From positions 248,001 through 312,000 of the forward strand of contig JAMLHB010000001.1 of assembly GCA_023957375.1 (NCBI GenBank): 64,000 nucleotides of DNA. Reading direction: 5' to 3'. The notes beneath the pieces were generated by a model. The model had not been told where the DNA came from and ran no database searches. It saw only the letters and a list, made by a program, of their open reading frames with translations. This stretch comes from Flavobacteriales bacterium (GTDB taxonomy: Bacteria; Bacteroidota; Bacteroidia; Flavobacteriales_F; PHOS-HE28). Shown here in pieces: positions 1,830 to 57,455 of this stretch. Both the position numbers and the translations under genes were made by a program. How positions within the stretch are numbered: position 1 is the stretch's first letter; each line of letters opens with the position of its first letter.

Positions 1830-1861
1830 GGCCGGCTCCCTGTTCCACAGGCGCGGGGAGG

Positions 1862-2164
1862 CAGGGCAAACGCATCTAAACAGGTTGATAGCATTGGGTT
1901 TTGTGCGACGCCCTTCGGGGTCGAAATTCTCTTTATACCGAATGTACTACGCTATATCACCCCGTTGGGTCAAGCATTGGATCGGTTGCGGCATCCCGAA
2001 AGTGCTAAGCCCCTTGCCCCAGTCTTGTGGCGATCATGGAAGCGCACTTTGTGACCCCGTAGGGTGTCACACAGCGTAGGTGTTGGAATTCTGCGGGGAT
2101 TCGACCCCGAAGGGTGTCGCACAGGCGAGAAGCCTTAGCATTGAAATAAGATGCGTTTGCCCTG
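1862..2164. mobile_element. 303-bp MITE-like element with terminal inverted repeats and 10-bp target duplication
   Basis: The left end CAGGGCAAACGCATCT (1862-1877) is the exact reverse complement of the right end (2149-2164). The element is bounded by the perfect 10-bp direct repeat CGCGGGGAGG at 1852-1861 and 2165-2174, a classic target-site duplication. Further in, both arms carry a TGTGCGACRCCCTTCGGGG-type block, so the related arms extend about 60 bp. The interior holds REP-like palindromes at about 1907-1922 (inverted), 2053-2068 and 2103-2118, and no convincing gene. No transposase lies in the window, so it would be non-autonomous. A 55-bp relative sits at 56851-56905. Confidence 0.8.
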
Positions 2165-2189
2165 CGCGGGGAGGGAACCCCACGGGGGC

Positions 2190-41008: not shown

Positions 41009-41478
41009 ATACCAATTAGCCATTCAATATCCACTGGCGTCCGGGACAACATCCCAACACCGGCTGCGACACCCTCCGGGGTCGGCGCGCACACGGGCCT
41101 GTTGGTCTATAAGCTTTGACCCCTCCGGGGTCAGGCCCCTTTGTTGACGCTGGGTTCTTGACCCCGGAGGGGTCGCAGCTTGTAACATTTGCCCACCACA
41201 TGGTATTCGACCCCGGAGGGTGTCGCAGCCGGTGTGCCTGACACGGGGAGCTGCGTTGCACGCCCCATCCATTTCCATACAGGGCAGGGCGCCCCGACCT
41301 ATGCCGTTGCTTATCCCGGACACCAATGATTCAATATCAGCCGATCTGCTTGCTCTTTTTCCACATGGCTTCTCCGTGCCATGCGTTCCGTAGGCACCGC
41401 TACGCAACGCCCGTTACGGATCGCCCTGCGAAAAATTAGCTGCGCATCTTTGGCCGGAATTGAATGTCTAATTGGTAT
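41009..41478. repeat. Inverted-repeat element, copy B (470 bp), with nested REP palindromes
   Basis: The left stem ATACCAATTAGCCATTCAAT (41009-41028) pairs with 41459-41478 at 19 of 20 positions. The core 41341-41457 matches copy A (15761-15877). A second, degenerate left end (ACACCAATGATTCAATATC, from 41320) lies inside, so a shorter unit of about 159 bp like copy A can be defined. Between the two left ends sit four REP-like palindromes: 41068-41083 and 41118-41132 in one orientation, then 41160-41174 and 41209-41224 in the other. The right stem begins at the last base of the TAA of the phosphatase gene. It fills the 40892-41477 gap, with no gene seen. Confidence 0.78.
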
Positions 41479-55682: not shown

Positions 55683-56633
55683 TCAGTTCTTCACGAACCG
55701 GACCCGCTGCCAGGCCGCCTCCCGGCCCAATAACAGCACGTAGCTGCCGGGAACCAAGTGGCGCACATCCACTTGGGGAGCGCCCGTGGCCAACTTGCCC
55801 GTGGCCAGGATGCGGCCCTGCATGTCCAGCACTTGCCATCCGCTCCCTGGGAGCGCTTGGGGAACGTTCAGGTAGTGGGTGCAGGGGTTCGGCCATACTT
55901 CCGCCGTCTGCGCCGCGTGCTCCCCTACGCCCACATTGTTCTGGATGTAGAACATGGTGGATCCTTCATCGCTGATCATCACCGGGCACAGCCGGTTGTG
56001 GTTCCAAAAGACCACGTCACCTTCCTGGCTCTCCACCAACGCCACTCCGCTAATGGTGGCCGAGGGCAGGATCAATGTACCGTAACCGGCGAAGTTCCAA
56101 TGCTTGGTATTGATGACGCCCCCGGTGGAGTAATCATCGGTGAAGGATTCGCCCAAGGTGAACGGGAATTTCATGATCTGAACCGGGTCCGTGTAAATCA
56201 CCGGGTCGGGCAAGCCCACGTTGCGGTCCAGCAGGTCCATGCCTTGGCTGGTGGCGCGCAGGTAGTAGTACGCGGTGCCCACTCCCGTCGCGGTATGGGT
56301 CCACACCCAGTTGGCCGTGGGGAATTGAGCCGCATGGGCGGTGCCGGCGGCGGGGGTGAAGTTCATCGTCCCGATGGCCTGGAGGGTGAGGCCGGAAAGG
56401 TCCCATGTTTGGTTCGGACCATGGCCCAACTCCGGAAGCACCCCGGGCGCGACCAACCGCAGCATGTCGGTGGAGGCCCCGAAACTCCCCAAGTCCTCGT
56501 ACAGGATCGTTTGGGCGGATAGTGGCCCCAGCATCAGGCAGGCCAAGGAAGCAAGGACCGATCGCAAGGAACCCCTGGCAGCCCTGAACGGACGGCCGGG
56601 CGAGGGCGCGATCCGGGCGGTGGTGTGCAACAT
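55683..56633 (-). CDS. Secreted T9SS type A sorting-domain protein
   Basis: About 316 residues from ATG 56633; ATG 56669 is an alternative adding 12 residues. The segment SLRSVLASLACLMLGPLSAQ is the signal-peptide core. The middle (about 45-240) is beta-rich with no recognised domain and resembles other single-domain exported proteins of this phylum. The end VWPNPCTHYLNVPQALPG to YVLLLGREAAWQRVRFVKN (about the last 75 residues) is a T9SS type A C-terminal sorting domain, with the usual P-N-P start and K-N finish. It should be exported through the type IX system and attached to the surface or released. Confidence 0.78.
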   Translation of the reverse strand: MLHTTARIAPSPGRPFRAARGSLRSVLASLACLMLGPLSAQTILYEDLGSFGASTDMLRLVAPGVLPELGHGPNQTWDLSGLTLQAIGTMNFTPAAGTAHAAQFPTANWVWTHTATGVGTAYYYLRATSQGMDLLDRNVGLPDPVIYTDPVQIMKFPFTLGESFTDDYSTGGVINTKHWNFAGYGTLILPSATISGVALVESQEGDVVFWNHNRLCPVMISDEGSTMFYIQNNVGVGEHAAQTAEVWPNPCTHYLNVPQALPGSGWQVLDMQGRILATGKLATGAPQVDVRHLVPGSYVLLLGREAAWQRVRFVKN

Positions 56634-56850
56634 GGAGGATGCCTGGGTCGGGTTACTGGAGGTTCTCATCAAAGGGTTTGCAATGGCTTGGGCCGGTTGG
56701 GGGGCGGGGAAGTGGAAGGACAAATGAAGCACAAACCTTGGATCGGGCACGACGATCAGGGCCGCATGGCCGCATTTGGGGCAGGTCGTTGGCCGGTCTG
56801 GCCGTCAGCGCCGCGGGTGGCAAAAGCGGTGTGCCGCAGCGATCACCGGC

Positions 56851-56905
56851 CAGGGCGTCGCACAAACCTGTAGCTCTGACATTGAAATATGATGCGTTTG
56901 CCCTG
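56851..56905 (+). mobile_element. 55-bp mini-element with 10-bp target duplication
   Basis: It begins CAGGGC and ends GCCCTG, and is bounded by the perfect 10-bp direct repeat GATCACCGGC at 56841-56850 and 56906-56915. Its last 26 bases match the right end of the 303-bp element (2139-2164) at 25 of 26 positions. Ungapped alignment continues back to 2111, where the larger element has AGGGTGTCGCACA and this one AGGGCGTCGCACA. It therefore looks like a single terminal unit moved on its own. It lies 68 bp before the DUF4920 gene and next to its promoter box. Confidence 0.75.
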
Positions 56906-56937
56906 GATCACCGGCACGGTGTAGCGCAGGCGCGAAC

Positions 56938-56945
56938 TATCTTCG
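56938..56945 (+). promoter_or_regulatory. -7 box TATCTTCG for the DUF4920 operon
   Basis: A TAnnTTCG match 27 nt before the ATG at 56973. The 55-bp element ends 33 bp upstream, near the expected -33 region. Confidence 0.45.
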
Positions 56946-56972
56946 CGCTCCAACCGCACAGATCACTTCCGC

Positions 56973-57455
56973 ATGCGACCATTTACCCTCCTCTTGGTGT
57001 TGCCCTTGGCCTTCCACCTGCAGGCGCAGCAACCGGCCACGGCCGTGGGCGCCAACGCATCGTACACCAATTACGGCGACGCCATCACACCGGACGGTGC
57101 CATTGGCATGGCCGAGTTCGAGGCCGCCGCTGCCCGGAAAGATTCCCTGGAGGCCAAGGTGGAAGGGGAGATCATTGAAAGTTGCACCAAGAAAGGCTGC
57201 TGGATGACCGTGAAAATGAGCGACGGCTCGCCCATGATGGTGCGCTTCCGCGACTATGGCTTCTTCGTGCCCAAGCAGGGCTTGGAAGGCAAGGAGGTAG
57301 TGATGCAGGGTCGTGCCAAAAAGGAGGAAACCAGCGTAGCGATGCTGCGCCACTATGCCGAAGACGCGGGCAAGAGCAAGGAGGAGATCGCCGCCATCAC
57401 CGAGCCGGAGATCAGCTGGAAGTTCGAGGCGGATGGCGTGCTGATCAAGGAATGA
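56973..57455 (+). CDS. DUF4920 domain-containing exported protein
   Basis: A 160-residue protein. MRPFTLLLVLPLAFHLQAQ is a signal peptide. The mature region matches the DUF4920 layout as I recall it: YGDAITPDGAIGM near residue 34, VEGEIIESCTKKGCWMTVKM (about residues 63-82) with two Cys, and a MMVRFRDYGFFVP strand. The family is periplasmic and structurally related to small OB-like domains; no enzymatic activity is known. The stop overlaps the start of the PAP2 gene (ATGA, 57452-57455), giving a three-gene operon with the isoaspartyl peptidase. Confidence 0.85.
   Translation: MRPFTLLLVLPLAFHLQAQQPATAVGANASYTNYGDAITPDGAIGMAEFEAAAARKDSLEAKVEGEIIESCTKKGCWMTVKMSDGSPMMVRFRDYGFFVPKQGLEGKEVVMQGRAKKEETSVAMLRHYAEDAGKSKEEIAAITEPEISWKFEADGVLIKE

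Follow-up and report, generated by a model that had tools for sequence, protein, structure and literature searches.

Genomic context and structure of the 55-bp unit

The stretch of DNA analysed here (64,000 nucleotides of a Flavobacteriales bacterium; hereafter the window) contains a gene coding for a DUF4920 protein and, divergent from it, an ORF with a weak match to a T9SS sorting domain. A 55-bp insertion with no transposase gene and no coding capacity lies between the two. The features discussed below are the following:

1852-2174, plus strand: 303-bp ISAs1-type MITE (1862-2164) with its duplication, the closest relative of the 55-bp unit
55683-56750, minus strand: divergent ORF, weakly similar to a T9SS sorting domain; the insertion is upstream of its start
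56841-56850, unstranded: left copy of the target-site duplication, GATCACCGGC, from flank comparison
56851-56905, plus strand: the 55-bp unit, most likely an ISAs1-type MITE remnant, from own-genome search and alignment
56851-56856, plus strand: CAGGGC, the sole surviving bases of the left repeat and putative deletion junction (shared AGGG/AGGGC); the one-deletion model with the best fit has its breakpoint right after base 6
56857-56865, plus strand: GTCGCACAA, what survives of a REP-like hairpin (its 3' arm); the 303-bp element has the whole hairpin, CGACCCCGAAGGGTGTCGCACAG
56891-56905, plus strand: right terminal repeat, exactly GATGCGTTTGCCCTG
56906-56915, unstranded: right copy of the target-site duplication, GATCACCGGC, from flank comparison
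56973-57455, plus strand: DUF4920 gene (PF16267, domain match), downstream of the insertion

The unit starts with CAGGGC and terminates in GATGCGTTTGCCCTG, and both of its ends begin with CAGGGC. As the original prediction had noted, an exact 10-bp repeat stands on both sides: GATCACCGGC at 56841-56850 and again at 56906-56915, identical at 10/10 positions. We compared the flanks of all CAGGG...CCCTG pairs in the window with a spacing of 30-700 bp. Only the 55-bp unit and the 303-bp element reached 10/10, and the next-best pairs had four mismatches (6/10 at most); the GATCACCGGC duplication is therefore not a chance match. What lies at this site is a genuine transposon insertion, its 10-base target duplication being perfect.

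A TATCTTCGCG motif (56938-56947) follows about 30 bp beyond the end of the insertion, which stops, together with its duplication, just short of it. Motifs of this type are the only conserved piece upstream of DUF4920 in several relatives, and this one is probably the core promoter. Nine relatives could be read over more than 300 bp upstream of DUF4920. None has a terminal repeat there, and beyond the TATCTTCGC promoter-like motif their DNA has diverged past alignment, so that an empty site could not be recognized.

Relationship to a family of MITEs

Four REP-like hairpins lie within the 303-bp element, which is bounded by 15-bp terminal repeats (CAGGGCAAACGCATC) and by its own perfect 10-bp target duplication, CGCGGGGAGG (1852-1861 and 2165-2174). 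In the own-genome search, the 54 bases of the 55-bp unit that start at AGGG aligned to 2111-2164 without gaps, 43 of them being identical (80%, E = 4e-7), exactly as had been described. The right 15 bp of the unit are an exact copy of the terminal repeat, and within the window the only other exact occurrences of GATGCGTTTGCCCTG are the two ends of the 303-bp element. The left end is different: it shares CAGGGC with the 15-bp repeat, and positions 7-15 match at 0/9. Beyond CAGGGC, the unit continues with the hairpin arm that is placed near the right end of the 303-bp element (CGACCCCGAAGGGTGTCGCACA). The earlier description of the insert as one terminal unit of the larger element thus holds for its kinship to an end of 1862-2164 and for its own duplication, but only the right end has a 15-bp repeat. 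ISAs1-family MITEs are recognized by a terminal inverted repeat of about 15 bp at both ends; since the left end of the 55-bp unit matches in CAGGGC only, with 0/9 beyond, we term it a remnant and not an intact member.

Three near-identical MITE copies of 303/304 bp are present in the host genome, with a mutual identity of 298-299 of about 304 positions; the 55-bp unit is 20% diverged from them. The same genome also has a 239-bp copy with the duplication CGCTATTAAC, as well as older remnants. Exact copies of GATGCGTTTGCCCTG were found in 11 of the 45 genomes of the genus. For about 20 of these copies, a second terminal repeat completes an element of 141-583 bp whose 10-bp flanks match, mostly at 8-10 of 10 positions and in many cases at 10/10. 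These ISAs1-derived MITEs (1862-2164, L032, L033, L034, L073, L085 and others) have the right repeat and the duplication length of the 55-bp unit and share 80% identity with it over the terminal unit. Unlike it, they have kept both terminal repeats and measure 141-583 bp.

About 1.7 kb from the 239-bp copy (L034, C2:1192500-1197000 of the own genome) there is another left end, solo but with an identical CGCTATTAAC flank; this points to a segmental duplication that followed the insertion.

ISAs1 identity of the terminal repeat

Members of the ISAs1 family duplicate 8-10 bp of their target (ISfinder). A search with the PF13808 domain detected three ISAs1 copies in the host genome, each of 1,216 bp with perfect 10-bp duplications, ends reading CAGGGCTATCGCGTCTTAA, and a match to NF033564 (E = 3.5e-111). 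The repeat of these resident copies (CAGGGCTATCGCGTC) is related to, yet different from, that of the 55-bp unit. An ISAs1 copy with the matching repeat is absent from the host genome but present in a congener (G032), where a transposase of about 376 aa, assigned to ISAs1 by NCBIfam NF033564 (E = 1.3e-101), lies in an element of about 1.24 kb. At its right end this element reads GATGCGTTTGCCCTG without a mismatch; the left end shows slight decay, and no duplication was visible.

We also scanned 85,000 species with the pattern CAGGG-N20-50-GATGCGTTTGCCCTG and listed 80 loci. At L150, L158, L179, L184 and L185, from Bacteroidales and Flavobacteriaceae, the end follows apparent ISAs1-like transposase C-termini, recognized by eye from a GW-N-Y-L-K-like pattern. 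A described member of the family, ISArsp11, has ends CAGGGCTGATGCAAAGTCG and a 10-bp duplication, GGAACAGCAC (PMC6305408). From the congener copy, the resident copies, ISArsp11 and the C-termini that precede the same end, the CAGGGCAAACGCATC end is identified as an ISAs1-family terminal repeat. The 55-bp unit resembles ISAs1 insertion sequences such as ISArsp11 (PMC6305408) in the CAGGGC start of its ends and in its 10-bp duplication, and relatives with a full transposase in the genus carry an end identical to its own. It differs from them in having no transposase, in one repeat cut to 6 bases, and in its length of 55 bp as compared to 1.2-1.3 kb.

Search for further copies and other small elements

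A second 55-bp copy was detected neither in the own genome nor in its 44 congeners (45 genus genomes in all), nor in the phylum sample of 395 genomes, about 394 of which are further ones. The 80 loci listed from the 85,000-species scan likewise held no other 55-bp copy with flanking repeats, and a bare left end with a duplication was seen in 0/80. Most of these loci are chance or coding matches or inner parts of ISAs1-like right ends, and at least three pass the duplication test. The original prediction had seen in the insert a possible new class of mobile mini-element in Bacteroidota and had itself proposed the search for other copies as a test. By that test the claim fails, as no other 55-bp copy was found: the unit is single in its own genome, in the genus and in the phylum sample, and its end is a known one, that of ISAs1.

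The genus scan returned other short matches of 39-63 bp. Three of the four short matches in G019 are 40 bp long and arise where the end is preceded by chance by a CAGGGCAT from inside a longer MITE. The own flanks of two G019 matches (L165, L177) do not match.

Among the matches listed, small elements with both terminal repeats came from other phyla: one of 56 bp in a Verrucomicrobia MAG (L146; duplication 10/10), one of 68 bp in a Deltaproteobacteria MAG (L186/L241; 10/10, with a second site at which the flanks match at 8/10) and one of 69 bp in a Phycisphaerae MAG, from the Planctomycetota (L188; 8/9). No two-repeat mini-element was found in viral contigs. The three are comparable to the 55-bp unit in size and have the same terminal repeat and a target duplication, but both of their repeats are intact, their interior is unrelated, and the 68-bp one occurs at two sites. 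ISAs1-type elements can thus be as small as the 55-bp unit, but those proven at this size carry a repeat at either end.

Proposed origin and alternatives

We consider it probable that the 55-bp unit is the shrunken remnant of an ordinary MITE mobilized by an ISAs1-family DDE transposase. A MITE of about 300 bp, with 15-bp repeats (CAGGGCAAACGCATC) and internal REP-like hairpins, would have inserted between the gene of the putative T9SS protein and the DUF4920 gene, duplicating 10 bp of target. An internal deletion of about 248 bp, either later or possibly already prior to the insertion, would have fused CAGGGC, the tip of the left end, to the GTCGCAC hairpin arm close to the right end, with the shared AGGG(C) serving as microhomology, and left 55 bp with a single intact end. 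When a single deletion is modelled from the 303-bp copy, the best breakpoint retains exactly six left-end bases and gives 10/55 mismatches. Neighbouring breakpoints, or no contribution from the left end, give 11-12 mismatches of 55, so the deletion model fits slightly better. The two junction bases that depart from the right unit of the 303-bp element (base 1, A to C; base 6, T to C) are those supplied by the left-end CAGGGC; AGGG is common to both deletion sites, and AGGGC is found in the other hairpin variant. From this advantage of one to two mismatches and from the missing left repeat we infer the deletion; its placement before or after insertion and the present immobility of the unit are likewise part of the proposed history. 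The left end has the look of a deletion junction, not of a transposase site. The parent MITE itself was not found, the three host copies of 303/304 bp being 20% off, and neither a full-length MITE nor an empty site could be aligned at the orthologous position in relatives.

It is also conceivable, but rather unlikely, that the 55-bp unit itself transposed, its intact right end having been paired with a CAGGGC pseudo-end at the hairpin near the right end. The perfect duplication directly abuts both ends, CGCA is shifted by only one base from where the true repeat has it (CAGGGCGTCGCAC as against CAGGGCAAACGCATC), and size is no barrier, given the two-repeat elements of 56-69 bp in other phyla and the two sites of the 68-bp one. 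Against this, the inner positions of the left end are mismatched at 9/9, no further copy of the unit was detected in its own genome, among the congeners or in the phylum sample, and neither the genus MITEs nor the 80 loci listed include another element with this end that combines a CAGGG-only side with a duplication. Were it true, an ISAs1-family transposase would tolerate a nearly bare 6-bp tip on one side.

More improbable still is a junction that arose from two insertions, or from rearrangement or recombination between two MITEs, instead of a deletion within one. In its favour, the 15 bases directly after the C (AGGGCGTCGCACAAA) are identical to the 303-bp MITE's other end unit, and CATTGAAATA-GATGCG agrees with the right unit of that MITE. 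Recombination between different copies would, however, separate the flanking duplication, which is matched here. That an old solo end merely acquired an accidental 10-bp flank match seems hardly credible: the single terminal repeat agrees with it, and an empty site could not be aligned in relatives, but in the window only the two true elements reach 10/10 and all other pairs stay at 6/10 or below. Overall, the 55-bp unit most likely derives, by shrinkage of a MITE, from an element of a known kind, and does not represent a new class of tiny mobile elements.

Other elements of the host genome

A 297-bp element at 41032-41328 of the window is bounded by terminal repeats reading CAYTGGYGTCCGGGAYAA and by a perfect 10-bp duplication (ATTCAATATC), and the genome contains about eight copies of it. 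Its four REP-like hairpins (CGACCCCGGAGGGTGTCG) are laid out as in the ISAs1-type MITEs, and its terminal repeats are quite different. A further set of MITEs in the own genome (L242, L243, L244, L247), of 245-247 bp, has the resident ISAs1 end CAGGGCTATCGCGTCTTA, duplications of 9-10 bp and REP-like hairpins. In a single genome, the same hairpin cassette is thus flanked by three or more kinds of terminal repeats.

Among described systems, the MITEs of Porphyromonas gingivalis match IS5-family ends, and Correia elements, which measure about 107 and about 155 bp, form part of a different system (PMC2229807, PMC4596501). Correia/NEMIS elements and P. gingivalis MITEs are, like the 55-bp unit, small and non-autonomous, and their terminal repeats are akin to those of an insertion sequence resident in the genome; unlike it, they have no ISAs1-type ends (PMC2229807, PMC4596501).

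Implications for ISAs1-derived elements

With these data, a previously unnamed, genus-wide MITE family is now tied to ISAs1, which is mostly a point of annotation. The two-repeat elements of 56-69 bp in several phyla imply that the minimum length for the ISAs1 transposase family is about 70 bp or less. The 55-bp unit, for its part, would illustrate how a MITE may shrink until it resembles an independent mini-element.
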